Both the position numbers and the translations under genes were made by a program. This document shows, piece by piece, positions 10,145-30,628 of a stretch of DNA of 44,052 bases (position 1 is its first letter; each line of letters starts with the position of its first letter). Below the pieces are notes generated by a model, which ran no database searches, was not told where the DNA came from, and saw only the letters and a program-made list of their open reading frames with translations. Origin of the DNA: Salinivirgaceae bacterium (GTDB lineage Bacteria > Bacteroidota > Bacteroidia > Bacteroidales > SZUA-534); assembly GCA_027858735.1 (NCBI GenBank), contig JAQICC010000330.1, positions 1-44,052 of the forward strand, written 5' to 3'.

Positions 10145-11254
10145 TTATACCGTGGAAGCGATAGTAAAAATTGATTTTTGCGCATCAATTTTTTCAAAAT
10201 GGAATTCAAATTTTCTTAGGCTTATTTGGGCTAAATTAATGAGACCCAAACCAGAGTTATCTGATTCATTGTCAAGATCATTCATAAGTATTTCAGAATA
10301 CAATAGTTCCAATTCATCTTTATTTAAAGAGTTTATTTTATCTAAATGACTCTTTAATGCTGTAACTTTATCGTTTTCAATATAATTGCCAGTGCAAACC
10401 ATAAAGTTTTTCTGCTTTTTCGATAGGGTAAAGATTCCATCTCTAATCTCGTTTGTACTAAAAGTATGCTTACTTATATTTTGCAACAGCTCAACCATAG
10501 CAATATAAACATTCTTCATTTTCATTGATTTAGAACCTTTACTTAGAATACTGTTTTCAATAATATTTAATACGGGTAAAATTGATTCTTGTGAAAAATC
10601 GCCTTTTTGTATCATCAATATATTTTCGTGTCTAAGCAATTCATGAAAAACGCTAGCACTTTCAATACCAAGTTTATTATCATTTTCCGTTGTGGTTTGC
10701 TCAAATTCAGACTGCAACACAATTTGATTATAGAATATTGAAGAATCTTTGCTAAAGTCAACGAAAGAGTATCCAAGTTCGTGACCCGATTTTCGAGCCA
10801 TTTCAATTAAACCTAAACCGGCTCCACCTTTATCCGATATTTCTCCGTAGCGAATAACTTTTTTATATAGTGTTTTTAACTCTTCTTCGTCAAGTTTATT
10901 TAACTGATCAAGTTGTTGTTTTAAATCTTCAATGTTATCATTCTTTATTAAGTTAGCTGAAATTATATAATACTTACCTGAGGAATATCGTGTCATAAAA
11001 AAGCTCGTCTCATCTTGCGAATCCTTTTGAATTAATTCCTTTTCGCCATGACGAATAATATTCTGAAAACATTCAGCCATTAAATAAGAAACTCTTCGCT
11101 GAGTTTTCATTCCTTCATTATAGTTTTTCAGATTGGCTTCACTAAGGGTTACTAACTTAAAGGTAACATCATCGCTAAAACTCCCATTGTAGAGCAGGCA
11201 CTGGTTATCATTTTTTAGCTTTGTGAAAAACCAATTGACTGATGCACTATTCAT
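10145..11254 (-). CDS. Tandem SiaB-like (DUF6272) kinase/ATPase-fold protein
   Basis: The 369-residue protein is made of two homologous halves. Residues 1-185 hold an N-box MAECFQNIIRHGE (59-71) and a G-box GGAGLGLIEMARKS (143-156). Residues 195-369 hold a second set, MVELLQNISKHT (253-264) and SGLGLINLAQIS (334-345). Both also share the segment (A/G)N(L/Y)IxNDxxxxLKxxLDxxN. This is the GHKL-type fold of SiaB-like proteins, which in Pseudomonas phosphorylate the anti-sigma-factor antagonist-like SiaC; the Bacteroidota homologues I recall are single-domain, about 180 residues. No SiaA, SiaC or SiaD partner is visible nearby. No signal or TM. Function here is unproven; the fused pair may act as a built-in dimer. 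Confidence 0.75.
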   Translation of the reverse strand: MNSASVNWFFTKLKNDNQCLLYNGSFSDDVTFKLVTLSEANLKNYNEGMKTQRRVSYLMAECFQNIIRHGEKELIQKDSQDETSFFMTRYSSGKYYIISANLIKNDNIEDLKQQLDQLNKLDEEELKTLYKKVIRYGEISDKGGAGLGLIEMARKSGHELGYSFVDFSKDSSIFYNQIVLQSEFEQTTTENDNKLGIESASVFHELLRHENILMIQKGDFSQESILPVLNIIENSILSKGSKSMKMKNVYIAMVELLQNISKHTFSTNEIRDGIFTLSKKQKNFMVCTGNYIENDKVTALKSHLDKINSLNKDELELLYSEILMNDLDNESDNSGLGLINLAQISLRKFEFHFEKIDAQKSIFTIASTV

Positions 11255-12919: not shown

Positions 12920-13498
12920 TTAATAATTTTCTTCGCGAACTTGCATATAACTTTTTGGATGTAAACAAGCTGGACACGTTTCCAGTGCCTTTTCACTTTC
13001 GTATACATAACCGCAGTTTAGGCATTTCCACCAAACCTTACCGTCTTTCATAAACACTTTATCTTCCGAAATATTTTGAAGAAGTTTCAGGTAACGGCGT
13101 TCGTGTTCGGCCTCTACTTTCGAAATCATTTTAAAGGCTACAGCTACTGCTTTAAAACCTTCTTCTTCAGCTATTTTTGCAAATTCAGGATACAAATCCG
13201 TCCACTCTTCATTTTCACCTTCAGCAGCTGCTTTAAGGTTTTCTTTAGTGGTGCCTATTATACCGGCAGGATAAGTAGCTGTTATTTCAGCATTGCCCCC
13301 TTCAAGAAAATTAAAGAAACGCTTGGCATGCTCTTTTTCCTGCAAAGCAGTTTCCATAAAAATGGCAGAAATTTGCTCGTAACCCTCTTTTTTCGCTTGC
13401 TTGGCAAAAAACTCGTAGCGATTGCGTGCTTGCGATTCACCAGCAAAGGCCTTTAATAAATTTAGTTCGGTTTGGGTACCTTTTATTGATTTTTCCAT
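12920..13498 (-). CDS. rbr: Rubrerythrin
   Basis: The 192-residue protein has a four-helix diiron domain ([20 protein letters not shown] with the first ExxR motif, [26 protein letters not shown]) and a C-terminal rubredoxin-like FeS4 domain ([10 protein letters not shown] at ~157-166 and CPACLHPK at ~175-182). Rubrerythrin reduces hydrogen peroxide in the cytoplasm of anaerobes, taking electrons from rubredoxin/NADH oxidoreductases. The next gene to the right on the same strand is a flavin reductase-rubredoxin fusion that could serve as a donor. A hairpin repeat (13546-13608) lies in its leader. Full length, all metal ligands visible. Confidence 0.96.
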
Positions 13499-13545
13499 AG
13501 TGTAAATATTATGAATTAACGTTTATTTTTTTGTTGGGATGAATT

Positions 13546-13608
13546 GCCATAGATTTTCAGATTAATAAAAAAAGAAAATTATGTCTTTAAAAAATCTGTG
13601 AATCTGTG
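13546..13608. repeat. Hairpin repeat of the CACAGATTCACAGATT family
   Basis: Arms of 18 bases, 13546-13563 (GCCATAGATTTTCAGATT) and 13591-13608 (AATCTGTGAATCTGTGGC), pair with about 15 of 18 matches around an AT-rich loop. Each arm is itself a near-duplicate of an AGATT-ending unit. A partial copy occurs at 18591-18607. It sits between the rubrerythrin and flavin reductase-rubredoxin genes and could act on the mRNA as a terminator or stabiliser. Confidence 0.6.
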
Positions 13609-13612
13609 GCCT

Positions 13613-14290
13613 CTATATCTGAATAAAATCACTTTTTTCTGCCCCACAAGCCGGGCATGTCCAATCATCAGGTAATTCTTTGAATGGTACTTGTTCATCA
13701 GCATCGTCATAAATGTATTTGCATACAATACATTGGTGTCTTTCTTTACTTTCACTCATAGTTTTATCTTCTAGTTTCGATTTATCAATATAGGTGGGAG
13801 CATTTTTAGGTGCTACACCATTTTTCACTGTTCTGTAATATGCATAGGTTAATGGTTCGTTGTTTTCATCCAAAACTTCCGACTGAACCAATTCACCAAT
13901 AAACATAAGGTGGCTACCCAAGTCAATGGTTTCAACAACTTTACATTCAATATAGGCAATGGCATCGTTTTTAACTATGGGTACTCCGGTTTTACCATAA
14001 ATTATATCCATTCCTTTCATTTTGTCAACATCTTTACCACTCTTATAGCCAAATGTACCATAAATATTGGATGCTGTTTCTTGCTGTAGTATTGATGCTG
14101 CGAAAGCTCCAGTATTTTTAATGATGTCAGCGCTATAATTATTTTTATTGCAGCAGGCTGCAAACTTTGCAGGCTCAGAAGTTACTTGAAATACGGTATT
14201 TGAAATAAAACCATTTCCTTTGTTTTTATCACCTGAGCTTACTAGGTATAAGCCATATGAAATTTTGAAGAGTGCTTTAAAATCAACCAT
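13613..14290 (-). CDS. Flavin reductase-like/rubredoxin fusion (high-molecular-weight rubredoxin type)
   Basis: The start is taken at 14290 ([19 protein letters not shown]); an ATG at 14374 adds an AT-rich tail with no family resemblance. Residues ~1-160 form an FMN-binding split-barrel flavin reductase domain ([32 protein letters not shown]). Residues ~180-225 form a rubredoxin ([10 protein letters not shown]...[13 protein letters not shown]) with all four Cys. The arrangement matches Moorella Hrb, which passes NAD(P)H electrons to flavodiiron proteins that reduce oxygen or NO. Here it lies one gene from rubrerythrin, so a role in oxidative or nitrosative stress is likely. TAACTTTA upstream may be its -7 box. 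Confidence 0.9.
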
Positions 14291-14388
14291 CGCTAATTTA
14301 TTATTATTTTTATTTAAGTTAAAGTTACGTATTATGTACGGGAAAATAGAGCTTGTTAAATAGTTTAGAACCATTCAAAATAACCTTA

Positions 14389-15126
14389 CTAAAACTCGAT
14401 TAACCCTCGAAAAGCTTTAGTAGAGCTGGTACCATTTTCTCCTTCAAAAGAACAAACATTTTCGCAATTACTGCGAGTAAGTTTAAGAATTTCAGTCGGC
14501 AATGTTTCTTTTAAATAATTAATAACAAGCTTTTTAGGATAATTGTTTTTGTGAAAATCTATATCAAAAGTATCCATCATCCAATCAATATATCGGGTTG
14601 CTGTTACATGTTGGTTTAAATCAATATCGGAGTAGCGGGCTTTATTTTTGAAAATGTCGCCTTGTTTAACGGGCATTAGTTTTCCTGGAAATTGAGCAAT
14701 GGCATGTTTCTCCTTTAACTGGCTAAATATTTCGGAGGTCGATCCCTCTATTACTTTTGGACGGCGGCGTTCAATGTCAATAGCCAGCCAGCCCGATGTG
14801 GCTTTAGCCATTATTTTTCCCGAAGCGTTACGAACTACAAAATCTCTGATGTAAAGAATTTTATCAAGGTCTTTAGGCCACGTTTCAACCACAATCTGCT
14901 CCGACCATTTAATGGGCTTGTAAATTTCAACATTTATGCGGCTTAGCACCCATGCCAGATTTTGCTTGTTTAGATTCTCGAATCCGAGACCCAGATTGTC
15001 TGCTGAATTTATTGCTGATTGTAATAACAAATTAACCAAAGATCCTATTCGCAAACGATGGTGCATATCAGTGTCGGCAGTGGTTATTTTAAATGGGCTG
15101 AGGAGCGTAAGTTTGTTTTGTGGCAT
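14389..15126 (-). CDS. Acyl-ACP thioesterase
   Basis: The start is placed at 15126 (MPQNKLTLLSPFKI). The frame stays open to an ATG at 15222, but that extension is largely encoded by an intergenic repeat. The protein of about 245 residues is a double hot-dog acyl-ACP thioesterase (FatA/FatB-like family): N-terminal half with WVLSRINVEIYKPIKW and SGWLAIDIERRRP, C-terminal half with the characteristic SDIDLNQHVTATRYIDWM, which carries the catalytic Asn and His. It releases fatty acids from ACP in the cytoplasm and helps set chain length. It is followed by the Hrb-like gene on the same strand with a 98-base gap. Confidence 0.9.
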   Translation of the reverse strand: MPQNKLTLLSPFKITTADTDMHHRLRIGSLVNLLLQSAINSADNLGLGFENLNKQNLAWVLSRINVEIYKPIKWSEQIVVETWPKDLDKILYIRDFVVRNASGKIMAKATSGWLAIDIERRRPKVIEGSTSEIFSQLKEKHAIAQFPGKLMPVKQGDIFKNKARYSDIDLNQHVTATRYIDWMMDTFDIDFHKNNYPKKLVINYLKETLPTEILKLTRSNCENVCSFEGENGTSSTKAFRGLIEF

Positions 15127-15138
15127 GTTACATTTTAA

Positions 15139-15212
15139 CTTTGTGAAACTCTGTGTTGGTTCTATGAAACTCTGTGTTACAAATATGGGCTTATAATACT
15201 GAGTTTCATAGA
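15139..15212. repeat. Tandem 19-base units (CTCTGTGTT family) with inverted arm, in thioesterase leader
   Basis: Two near-identical 19-base units at 15139-15157 (CTTTGTGAAACTCTGTGTT) and 15160-15178 with a 21-base period. In addition TCTATGAAACTC (15161-15172) is perfectly inverted at 15201-15212 (GAGTTTCATAGA), giving a 12-bp stem. The same 19-base unit, in the same orientation to the downstream gene and with the same 21-base period, precedes comF at 39075-39114. Confidence 0.7.
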
Positions 15213-15305
15213 GAAGTCTCAAAGGTACTTATAAAAGTAAAAGTTCTACTATCAATTTTGTGGGTGTTTTTATACGATGTACATATTTTGATTTTCAGGT
15301 TAATA

Positions 15306-15452: not shown

Positions 15453-17321
15453 TTAATGCATTTTTCGTGGAACAATCATATTTTCAGGAGCTAATACATT
15501 TTTTAGTTCATCTTCGGAAAGCAGCTTTTGTTCCAAAACCAAATCGTAAACACTTCGGCCTGTTTTTAAAGCTTCTTTGGCCAAGTTACTACAAATCTCA
15601 TAACCCAATACTGGGTTTAGTGCAGTTACAATACCTATGCTATGATGCACCAAGTTTTTGCAATGCTCAACATTGGCAGTTATGCCATCAATACATCTGA
15701 ATTTAAGTACTTCCATGCCATTTTTCAGCATTTCAACACTTTCAAAAATGCTTTGTACTATTACGGGTTCCATTACATTTAATTCGAGTTGCCCGGCTTC
15801 TGAAGCCATGGTAACCGTAATATCGTTGCCAATTACTTTAAAGGCTATTTGGTTTACCACTTCGGGTATTACCGGATTAACCTTGCCTGGCATAATGCTT
15901 GAACCGGGTTGCATTGGTGGTAGGTTAATTTCGTTTAAACCGGTTCGCGGCCCTGATGAAAGCAAGCGCAAATCGTTACAAATTTTTGAAAGCTTTACTG
16001 CCAAACGTTTAATAGCCGATGAATACATAACAAACGAACCAGTATCCTGTGTGGCTTCAACCAGATTTCCGGCTAGAACGATATCCAACTCGGTAATATT
16101 ACGCAAATGTTTTATGCAGCTTTCGCTATAGCCAGGTTCTGCATTTATGCCTGTACCAATGGCTGTTGCCCCCATATTTACTTCTAAAAATAGTTTGGCA
16201 TTTTCATTAAGGCGTTCTATTTCTTCTCCAAGTGTTACGGCATAGGCTTCAAATTCCTGGCCTAGTGTCATGGGCACTGCGTCTTGCAGCTGGGTACGGC
16301 CCATTTTAATTACATCACGAAAATCGTGGGCCTTGTCTCTAAACGATTGTACTAATTCTTCAAGTACATCGGTAAGCCGATCGTTATTTTTATACAAGGC
16401 TACTTTAACCGAAGTTGGGTAGGCATCATTGGTAGATTGCGATAAATTAACGTGATTGTTGGGGTGGCAATGCTCATACTGACCTTTATCGTAGCCCAAA
16501 ATCTCCAAGGCTCGGTTTGCAATTACCTCATTGGCAGCCATATTGGTCGATGTTCCTGCGCCACCTTGAATCATGTCTACTGAGAAGTTGCTATGATATT
16601 TTCCTTTTATAATCTCTTCGCAAGCCTGGTCAATGGCTTGTTGTAACTCATTGTTTAACATACCTATTTCATTGTTTGCGCGCGCTGCAGCCTTTTTAAC
16701 CATAGCCAAGGAAGTTATAAAAACGGGATAAAAGTTAAGTGTTACACCACTTATGTTAAAGTTTTCCTTAGCACGTAAAGTTTGTATTCCATAATACGCT
16801 TCTGAAGGCACTTCTCTATCGCCCAATAAATCATGTTCGCTGCGTGTTTGGCCCGAAATATATTGAGCTCCTGCGTTCACCAAATTTACATTAGCTTGAT
16901 TCATACGGCGTGTTATAACTTTTGCAAGATGGCGGTATATTTTCAGAGCAATGCTTGGGTGTTCATCAAATAGTTTTTTTAGTGCGGGGTGAGGCAATGC
17001 AAGGAGCTCTGAATTTGTCATAGCACGAGCAGAGGTGGAGTGTGGATAGTTATCCATTAGGGAACCTTCGCCCAAAAAATCTTTACTTCGGAAGAAAGAT
17101 AAACGCTTTTCCTCGCCGAAGGGGGTGCGTTTTATTAATTCTATCTCGCCTGAGCATATAATGAAAACCGAGTTTCTTGGACTATGTTCTTTGAAAATAT
17201 AGCTTCCTTTCTCGTAAGATCTCTGCATAAAAAAGCCAGACAGAGTTTCAAGCTCTTTATTATCAAGTGTTTTAAATAGATTTACGTGTTTTATAAAGTC
17301 AATTATTGCTGATTTTTTCAT
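15453..17321 (-). CDS. aspA: Aspartate ammonia-lyase with N-terminal cyclic-nucleotide-binding-like domain
   Basis: The 622-residue protein is a fusion. Residues ~12-140 form a cNMP-binding (CRP-type) beta-roll (KGSYIFKEHSPRNSVFIICSGEIELI, then LGEGSLMDNYPHSTSARA). Residues ~155-620 form a complete fumarase/aspartase-superfamily enzyme: HDLLGDREVPSEAYYGIQT, GGAGTSTNMAANEV (~253-266), TNDAYPTS, and signature GSSIMPGKVN (473-482). Aspartase converts L-aspartate to fumarate and ammonia; aspartase fits better than fumarase by the N-terminal AYYGIQTLRA motif. In the cNMP pocket the phosphate-binding Arg position holds His94 (PHSTSA), so ligand binding is not certain. The added domain suggests allosteric control. 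A class III cyclase is encoded 12 kb away. Confidence 0.88.
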   Translation of the reverse strand: MKKSAIIDFIKHVNLFKTLDNKELETLSGFFMQRSYEKGSYIFKEHSPRNSVFIICSGEIELIKRTPFGEEKRLSFFRSKDFLGEGSLMDNYPHSTSARAMTNSELLALPHPALKKLFDEHPSIALKIYRHLAKVITRRMNQANVNLVNAGAQYISGQTRSEHDLLGDREVPSEAYYGIQTLRAKENFNISGVTLNFYPVFITSLAMVKKAAARANNEIGMLNNELQQAIDQACEEIIKGKYHSNFSVDMIQGGAGTSTNMAANEVIANRALEILGYDKGQYEHCHPNNHVNLSQSTNDAYPTSVKVALYKNNDRLTDVLEELVQSFRDKAHDFRDVIKMGRTQLQDAVPMTLGQEFEAYAVTLGEEIERLNENAKLFLEVNMGATAIGTGINAEPGYSESCIKHLRNITELDIVLAGNLVEATQDTGSFVMYSSAIKRLAVKLSKICNDLRLLSSGPRTGLNEINLPPMQPGSSIMPGKVNPVIPEVVNQIAFKVIGNDITVTMASEAGQLELNVMEPVIVQSIFESVEMLKNGMEVLKFRCIDGITANVEHCKNLVHHSIGIVTALNPVLGYEICSNLAKEALKTGRSVYDLVLEQKLLSEDELKNVLAPENMIVPRKMH

Positions 17322-29542: not shown

Positions 29543-30628
29543 ATGTTTTCTAAAGACAAAATAAGAATACGATATAGCAGGCTTTTTAAAAGCTTTTTTT
29601 TTCATACTGCATTTTGGGCTTTGGCATTTATGCTATTTAGTTTTTTAGTAACTGATAATTATTTACTTCAGGTTTTCGATAACATAAATTTAAGACAGAC
29701 TTACAGTACTTTTATTATATTAATTAGTGTTGCTATTGCCATTATTTTCTCCTTTGTCGATTTTATTTTTACCGATAGAGTGGTTCGTTTTTTCCCCATA
29801 CAATTAACACTGTTTTTTAAATCGCTTCTAAATTTTGCCATTGCTTTCGTAATAATTTGGGCTGCAGAAACGCAAACCTTCCATACAATATCTCTCGAAG
29901 AAGTTAACGATATTTTAATTACAATTACTGAGGCAAACATTCATTTGATTCGATTCTTGGTATATTTTTATCTGCTTTGTTTCTTGAATAATTTTATTGT
30001 TGAGACCTTGAAAAAGGTAGGAGCCGGTAATCTTAATAGCTGGGTATCTGGTGTATTAAATAAGCCTCATGAGCAAGAGCGAATTTTTATGTTTATCGAT
30101 TTAAAATCGTCAACTACTATTGCAGAGAAATTGGGACACAAAAAATTTAGCCATTTAGTACAAGATGTTTTTAACGATATGGCAGTAGTTGATAACTACG
30201 GAGGCGAAATATACAACTATATGGGCGATGGTGCCATAGTAAGTTGGAATGTTCGAAAAGGGGTGAAGCGAGGGAATTGCATGAAGGCTTTTTATGCGGT
30301 TTTACATGTAGTGGATAGTAGAAAGCGATATTATAAAAGAAAATACGGATTTGAACCAAAGTTTAAGGCAGGAATTCATATAGGCAAGGTTATGGTACTG
30401 CAGGTGGGGCAGATAAGGCGTGATATTTCTTATAATGGAGATACCATGAATACAGCTGCCCGAATTGAATCGCAATGCAATGAATTACGTCAGAGTTTAC
30501 TTATTTCTGGTGATTTGCACAATTTGTTACACGATAATAAGAACTTTCGGTTCAAAAATGTTGGGAATATAAAGCTTAAGGGTAAAGCTAAGGGAATTGA
30601 TATTTTTGGAGTTAAGGAGAAAGTATAA
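29543..30628 (+). CDS. Class III adenylate/guanylate cyclase with 4-TM domain
   Basis: The 361-residue protein has four hydrophobic helices at ~17-38, 55-75, 88-107 and 133-152, then a class III cyclase homology domain (~180-355). Metal-binding Asp186 lies in FIDLKSST and Asp229 in YMGDGAIVSW; the later SYNGDTMNTAARIES carries the transition-state Asn/Arg pair. It is predicted to make cAMP (or cGMP) from NTP at the inner membrane. It is 3 bases from the helicase gene, so co-transcribed. The same window encodes a cyclic-nucleotide-binding-like domain on aspartase. Substrate choice between ATP and GTP cannot be settled by eye. Confidence 0.9.
   Translation: MFSKDKIRIRYSRLFKSFFFHTAFWALAFMLFSFLVTDNYLLQVFDNINLRQTYSTFIILISVAIAIIFSFVDFIFTDRVVRFFPIQLTLFFKSLLNFAIAFVIIWAAETQTFHTISLEEVNDILITITEANIHLIRFLVYFYLLCFLNNFIVETLKKVGAGNLNSWVSGVLNKPHEQERIFMFIDLKSSTTIAEKLGHKKFSHLVQDVFNDMAVVDNYGGEIYNYMGDGAIVSWNVRKGVKRGNCMKAFYAVLHVVDSRKRYYKRKYGFEPKFKAGIHIGKVMVLQVGQIRRDISYNGDTMNTAARIESQCNELRQSLLISGDLHNLLHDNKNFRFKNVGNIKLKGKAKGIDIFGVKEKV

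Follow-up and report, generated by a model that had tools for sequence, protein, structure and literature searches.

A non-canonical cyclic-nucleotide-binding domain fused to aspartase in Bacteroidota and other bacteria: a plausible case of direct ligand control of aspartate deamination

Most of what is known of bacterial cyclic-nucleotide-binding (CNB) domains comes from transcription factors. In the regulators CRP, GlxR and Clr, the CNB fold and its C-helix are followed by an output domain, and Clr touches its cyclic nucleotide via G85, E86, R95 and S96 (excerpt of PMC10127613). CNB-gated bacterial enzymes are already known as well: in mycobacterial Pat, an N-terminal cAMP-binding domain gates the enzyme (excerpt of PMC8556138). 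Kannan et al. 2007 (PMC2246266; all statements from this work refer to excerpts of it) gave Arg209 as the phosphate-binding residue of PKA and reported that Gly169 and Arg209 are co-conserved in canonical CNB domains. Two families keep Arg209 without Gly169, and some families lacking Arg209 bind other ligands (PMC2246266). In kinetoplastid PKA regulatory subunits, the phosphate Arg is lost, the ribose Glu is kept and an exchange of Ala202 to Glu defines the ribose-binding cassette (excerpt of PMC10959531). None of the 30 CNB families in Table 1 of Kannan et al. carries an aspartase, the 'other bacterial' group not being itemised in that excerpt. Literature searches in open-licence PMC papers found no paper on an aspartase-CNB fusion among the titles and abstract openings listed; both domains belong to well-known families, and their combination may well be listed in domain-architecture databases.

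Here we analysed a gene joining the two. It lies in a window of 44,052 nucleotides (positions 1 to 44,052 of contig JAQICC010000330.1) from a Salinivirgaceae bacterium, whose genome comprises 5.99 Mb on 452 contigs and is 98.9% complete. The features of the gene are as follows.

15453 to 17321, minus strand: CNB-aspartase fusion gene, 622 aa (ORF, Pfam, NCBIfam)
16959 to 17222, minus strand: predicted CNB domain, residues 34-121 (Pfam PF00027, fold Z up to 18.7)
17175 to 17177, minus strand: Arg49 in the beta2-beta3 loop, at the position of PKA Gly169 (105/108 sequences)
17022 to 17078, minus strand: phosphate-binding-cassette block, residues 82-100 (FLGEGSLMDNYPHSTSARA), holding Glu85 and His94 (conservation)
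16887 to 16958, minus strand: long C-helix, residues 122-145, predicted, with invariant Arg139 (108/108)
16854 to 16892, minus strand: sensor-enzyme hinge, residues 144-156, of low model confidence (pLDDT <50)
15465 to 16850, minus strand: aspartate ammonia-lyase, residues 158-619 (TIGR00839 above cut-off, Z 47.2 to 6wng)

The preliminary description, made from the letters alone, had read a complete aspartase with a CRP-type N-terminal domain at this place. It was right: the gene is a single uninterrupted reading frame with an ATG start, and both domains scored above their cut-offs. The Pfam family cNMP_binding matched residues 34-121 (E 5e-20, 71.6 bits, cut-off 27.5), Lyase_1 residues 168-498 (E 4e-98) and FumaraseC_C residues 564-616. 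The aspA equivalog TIGR00839 reached 717.8 bits against a cut-off of 681.2, whereas both class II fumarase equivalogs scored under their own cut-offs. The sequence GSSIMPGKVNP at residues 473-483, which we take to be the catalytic loop of aspartases, was invariant or at least 90% conserved at each position in an alignment of 40 sequences. As judged by equivalog score and predicted fold, the enzyme half is thus a complete aspartase, the enzyme that converts aspartate to fumarate and ammonia. It stands in the place of the helix-turn-helix of Crp/Fnr regulators; neither this motif nor any further Pfam family was found at E 0.001. The source genome held 12 CNB-domain matches besides the fusion, and of the 13 in total 11 were above the cut-off, the fusion's ranking first by a narrow margin. 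The next aspartase-like match in this genome was 35% identical.

The known aspartases AspA/AspB (6wng from Elizabethkingia, 1jsw from E. coli, 1j3u from Bacillus) resemble residues 158-619 of the fusion, the full aspartase, but they are without an N-terminal sensor and match the fusion only from residue 156-159 onward. Aspartase 6wng was 61% identical over 457 aligned residues, with the GSSIMPGKVNP loop conserved in the fusion, and matched residues 157-620 of the structural model with Z 47.2. The best 60 of 156 solved-structure matches split into two blocks: CNB proteins aligned as far as about residue 149, and the matches to aspartases and fumarases began at residue 149-160. The full-length model, built from 40 sequences (mean pLDDT 78, pTM 0.72), predicted a CNB roll, a helix at 122-143, a hinge at 144-156 with pLDDT below 50, and then the aspartase. 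Modelled alone, the sensor reached a mean pLDDT of 86 with a helix predicted at 122-145. Since the matches listed for the whole protein were filled with aspartases and fumarases, the sensor was also searched by itself: the N-terminal 175 residues matched solved CNB domains with Z 16.6 to 18.7 (best 50 matches), among them cAMP-bound GlxR (Z 18.2 over 142 residues) and the kinetoplastid PKA structure 6hyq (Z 17.2). According to these models, the sensor adopts a CNB fold and the overall layout corresponds to a CRP in which an enzyme has taken the place of the helix-turn-helix.

The same domain order was found across Bacteroidota, a check that the preliminary description had proposed, and its concern that the fusion might be a one-genome artefact does not hold. 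A full-length search recovered the fusion in 58 of 295 genomes sampled from the order, in 35 families; this count includes the source genome and one with an internal stop (G100), and in a further genome (G204) the fusion was split across two contigs. The 57 other fusions were 54-70% identical to that of the source. At least 35 other genomes of the order held a sensor-less aspartase of 52-77% identity whose match began at residue 135-159, and the remaining matching genomes gave weaker matches (at most 43% identity among the matches listed). In a sample of 395 genomes from the phylum, 21 carried the fusion, namely the source genome and 20 outside its class; the same-class genomes of this sample that matched at E 1e-140 had the free aspartase only. 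Scanning the contigs of named genomes with an alignment of the sensor and junction gave at least 237 relatives. The best 80, ranked by similarity to the source sensor, were kept. In 72 of these a single frame continued through the aspartase and in 6 it ended at the contig end, and all 48 further loci that we fetched carried the fusion as one frame. One match ended at residue 424 (L071) and another gene was in two pieces overlapping at residues 487-564 (L129), which may be assembly error or decay. After removal of 13 duplicates from 120 of the 128 loci and addition of the source protein, 108 distinct full-length proteins were available. That the arrangement recurs in so many bacteria suggests on-protein control by a small molecule.

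The record titles of the carriers name Bacteroidales, Salinivirgaceae, Lentimicrobium, Ignavibacteria, Melioribacteraceae, Kapabacteria, Zixiibacteriota, Calditrichaeota, Caldisericaceae, Aminicenantes and a few others, with the caution that labels of metagenome-assembled genomes (MAGs) can err. Fusions were also seen in MAGs labelled Syntrophobacteraceae, Syntrophomonadaceae, Caldisericaceae, Bacillota, Aminicenantes and Vicinamibacterales (L064, L078, L080, L082, L118, L120), and for these six either the labels are wrong or the gene has moved across phyla.

We built a maximum-likelihood tree of the aspartase part by a quick method, with one kind of support value; it comprised 51 fused rows (the first 48 of 50 with less than 80% mutual identity, and the divergent fusions L164, L165 and L166 from the genome searches), 36 free rows and one outgroup. 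It requires two state changes, one gain and one loss of the fusion, which is thus a stable arrangement. All fused rows and one free aspartase, L149, sit on a branch with an SH-aLRT of 93, under the tool's starred level. L149 is the loss: this aspartase, 77% identical and from genome G015, is sister to the source row with a support of 96. Its gene is open and starts near the junction. The next upstream ORF lies on the opposite strand, and the gap between the two holds no listed ORF of at least 70 aa. Since L149 lost the sensor and kept an open aspartase gene, the sensor appears dispensable in at least one lineage. Aspartase positions 169, 425, 430, 493, 530, 531, 533 and 542 differed between the 51 fused and 27 free rows, a comparison that leaves out L149 and eight exported-type rows. 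We rejected these positions as an interface with the sensor: the sensor-less L149 retains all eight, so that they mark ancestry.

The eight exported-type rows (L168, L179, L180 and L182 to L186) form a starred clade of free aspartases of 52-54% identity. By eye, their starts are hydrophobic and resemble signal peptides, which hints at exported aspartases in the phylum. Two genomes with an aspartase of this type (G586 and G260) carry the fusion, too.

The pocket of the sensor departs from the canonical one in a fixed way. Its majority motif in the 108 sequences was F-L-G-E-G-[SA]-L-x-D-D-S-P-H-S-T-S-A-R-A. The ribose-binding Glu85 was present in 108/108. At the position of the phosphate-binding Arg, the preliminary description had correctly recognised His94, which lies nine residues past Glu85, presumably the same spacing as that of Arg209 from Glu200 in PKA; it was found in 106/108 sequences, with Tyr in one and Gln in one. 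Ser95 and Thr96 were each found in 103/108, Pro93 in 100/108 and Arg99 in 91/108. Gly58, the equivalent of PKA Gly178, and Arg139 were invariant (108/108 each), and counting back from Gly58 placed Arg49 (105/108) at the position of PKA Gly169. Hence both members of the canonical Gly169-Arg209 pair are replaced and fixed in the fusions. Because the 80 named loci were ranked by similarity of the sensor, this set leans to like pockets; Arg49, Glu85 and His94 were retained also in the divergent L164, L165 and L166. Mean entropy was 0.90 bits over residues 82-100 against 1.80 over residues 14-141, and of all 19-residue windows starting at residues 1-139 only that at 81-99 matched the entropy of 82-100. 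Beyond the sensor, the hinge runs into a conserved junction, QYxSGxTRxEHDLLG (Q153 106/108, Y154 107/108, S156 106/108). Within residues 1-157, no Cys, and thus no FNR-type cluster cysteine, and no His besides His94 was conserved in more than half of the 108 sequences.

When compared to Clr, whose four contacts align with G84, E85, H94 and S95 of the fusion, only the Arg differs. The fusion shares with the CRP/GlxR/Clr regulators the fold, the C-helix, the ribose Glu and the adjoining Gly and Ser, but its output is an enzyme, not a helix-turn-helix, and its phosphate Arg is His. By eye, the closest of the 30 printed consensus sequences was the phosphate-binding cassette of the CNB-CBS family, GERALLAGGPYSLTARA, which ends P-[Y/H]-S-x-[T/S]-A-R-A like the fusion (Kannan et al., PMC2246266); there, however, the partner is a CBS pair, and Tyr stands in place of His. 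The Glu-His pair was absent from the seven other CNB domains of the source genome with a displayed alignment, and L005 has the Glu with Arg. Judged from its sequence, the pocket is something other than a cAMP site in decay.

We consider it fairly probable, at about 0.6, that the fusion is a ligand-gated aspartase in which the non-canonical CNB domain takes up a ligand of nucleotide type that gates the enzyme. As to the nature of this ligand, the window itself holds a possible source:

29543 to 30628, plus strand: class III nucleotidyl cyclase, 361 aa, PF00211 at residues 182-350, 12.8 kb from the fusion

The cyclase domain is divergent (51.7 bits), follows a hydrophobic N-terminal half and shows by eye GDG and NxxxR signatures, which we take to be the motifs of class III cyclases. 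The source genome has five class III cyclase matches and no class I adenylate cyclase. Of the 58 genomes with the fusion, 51 had cyclases of class III (PF00211), compared with 6 of the 22 tested genomes with a free aspartase; two of these six, G271 and G265, have an exported-type aspartase. None was found in G015, the genome that lost the sensor. On the same contig as the fusion, 8/58 genomes had a cyclase at a distance of up to 10 kb (expected 0.71) and 11/58 had one at up to 17 kb (expected 1.15), the latter including the source pair. For the expected counts, genes were taken to be placed uniformly and contig ends were ignored, and the cyclases used were the best 150 matches, the weaker ones being cut off. 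The eight cases fall into 6 of the 35 families, with two genera contributing two each, and the eleven into 9 of 35. For two control genes, a cyclase was found within 17 kb in 0/51 and 0/53 genomes.

Strict gating by cAMP, cGMP or another 3',5'-cyclic nucleotide made by these cyclases, with a protonated His94 replacing the Arg, is the strongest competing explanation, but a somewhat doubtful one. Cyclase occurrence in 51 of the 58 genomes, linkage within 10 kb in 8/58 against 0/104 controls, and the retained Gly84, Glu85 and Ser95 argue for it. Against it, the equivalents of Arg209 and Gly169, co-conserved elsewhere, are both replaced, and in PKA the gentler change of this Arg to Lys already leads to a nearly ten-fold loss of affinity (PMC2246266). 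Furthermore, no class III cyclase was found in 7/58 and 11/50 fusion genomes (overlapping sets), the eleven including the genomes of L054 and L071, whose records are titled chromosomes (CP070766.1, CP070824.1). Contrasts within families gave little support: of the three with both states, f100 ran opposite to expectation, its fused genome G100 having no cyclase and its free genome G200 four, f13 had cyclases in fused and free genomes alike, and in f49 two fused genomes were without a cyclase. Among the named loci, 3/80 had a cyclase in their flanks (up to 10 kb, often less), all three belonging to the 58, which is near chance (about 0.6 expected in 1.05 Mb of flank, assuming 2.2 cyclases per 3.8 Mb); the flanks were scanned at E 1e-8 with a profile that we built from 32 cyclase loci and that can miss weak cyclases. 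The linked cyclases vary widely in score and length and hence seem to be of mixed types, not one partner. Fisher's test of the association gave P 3e-7, a value that ignores kinship and cannot bear the weight of proof, as the tree has no more than two changes of the fused state. The presence of cyclases as proof of a cyclic nucleotide ligand was rejected for this reason. Given the cyclase-less fusion genomes, the near-chance named loci and the unsupportive family contrasts, a cyclic mononucleotide stays the leading single candidate, not established, and we hold a 3',5'-cyclic nucleotide to be a tentative choice.

A second option is that the sensor reads a nucleoside or a non-cyclic purine nucleotide in the manner of kinetoplastid PKA, which would tie aspartate use to the purine or energy state. 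It would account for fusions in genomes without a class III cyclase, and the combination of a kept ribose Glu and a lost phosphate Arg is that of TbPKAR and TcPKAR (excerpt of PMC10959531); the model matches such structures too (6hyq, Z 17.2). However, the Glu for Ala202 is missing in the fusion: residue 87 is Ser or Ala in 96/108 sequences and Glu in 0/108. We regard this kinetoplastid-type explanation as rather unlikely; a purine nucleotide other than a cyclic one, or a nucleoside, as ligand would be a slightly less doubtful proposition. A cyclic dinucleotide seems improbable, and so does haem or any other ligand.

CNB folds without a known ligand exist, and the loss of the sensor in one lineage would be consistent with a structural or oligomerisation domain that binds nothing. 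The preliminary description had considered that the ligand may differ or be absent; absence has become less likely, since nowhere is the sensor better conserved than in the block with Glu85 and His94, and a purely structural role is in our view unlikely. A haem or redox sensor built on His94 has hardly any probability: the haem His of CooA is placed structurally at Arg209, the position of His94 (Kannan et al., PMC2246266), but the residues of the pocket block are polar (E, S, T, S, R) and, as residues 1-157 hold no other His or Cys conserved in more than half of the 108 sequences, neither a second protein ligand of the His/Cys type nor an FNR-like Fe-S site is evident, an N-terminal amine being a conceivable second axial ligand.

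The surroundings of the gene were compared across 81 loci, the 80 named ones and the source. A conserved operon partner was rejected: at 60% coverage clustering only the fusion recurred in at least 8/81 loci. With looser clustering, the next groups comprised 16 and 15 loci, by eye promiscuous sensor and ABC-transporter families, followed by groups of at most 6. Adjoining the fusion in the source, at 12920-15222 (minus strand), are an acyl-ACP thioesterase, a flavin reductase fused to rubredoxin and a rubrerythrin, none of which recurred in at least 8/81 loci. A protein of 369 aa at 10145-11254 (minus strand) has two stretches of DUF6272 (PF19788). Since no neighbour family recurred at this level, the regulator would sit in cis, and the lack of a conserved neighbour fits a self-contained switch.

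Returning to the ligand-gated aspartase, direct allosteric control by a nucleotide is the best and a plausible reading of the sequences, and this control may act without a transcription factor, as the preliminary description suggested, in a genome that has 12 other CNB-domain matches. The pocket of the N-terminal domain, now re-tuned, would take up a small molecule of nucleotide type; in it the ribose Glu and the adjoining Gly and Ser are kept, His replaces the phosphate Arg and Arg replaces the coupling Gly. Binding would shift the C-helix, and this shift, transmitted via the hinge 144-156, would alter how active the aspartase tetramer is. Deamination of aspartate to fumarate and ammonia would thus be set directly on the protein. 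The mycobacterial acetyltransferases MtPat (Rv0998) and MsPat are different enzymes for which cAMP binding is established, whereas for the fusion we infer ligand binding, the class of the ligand, the allosteric effect and its sign. By analogy with this cAMP-gated enzyme, we would guess the effect to be an activation.

In conclusion, the fusion puts a conserved CNB domain on a central enzyme of amino-acid metabolism, with a pocket departing from the cAMP rule in a fixed way. It is conceivable, and no more than tentatively proposed, that these widespread aspartases of single origin are ligand-gated and that their pocket, with Glu and His and an Arg in the coupling loop, reads a messenger or metabolite new to CNB domains. 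The free aspartases of the same order (52-77% identity), including the secondary loss of the sensor beside the source row, provide natural controls. If the proposed gating is true, aspartate deamination, and thus the supply of fumarate and ammonia, would be switched directly at the enzyme. The fusion thereby offers a clean system for two questions, which other ligands CNB domains bind and how these mostly uncultured bacteria regulate catabolism at the level of the protein itself.
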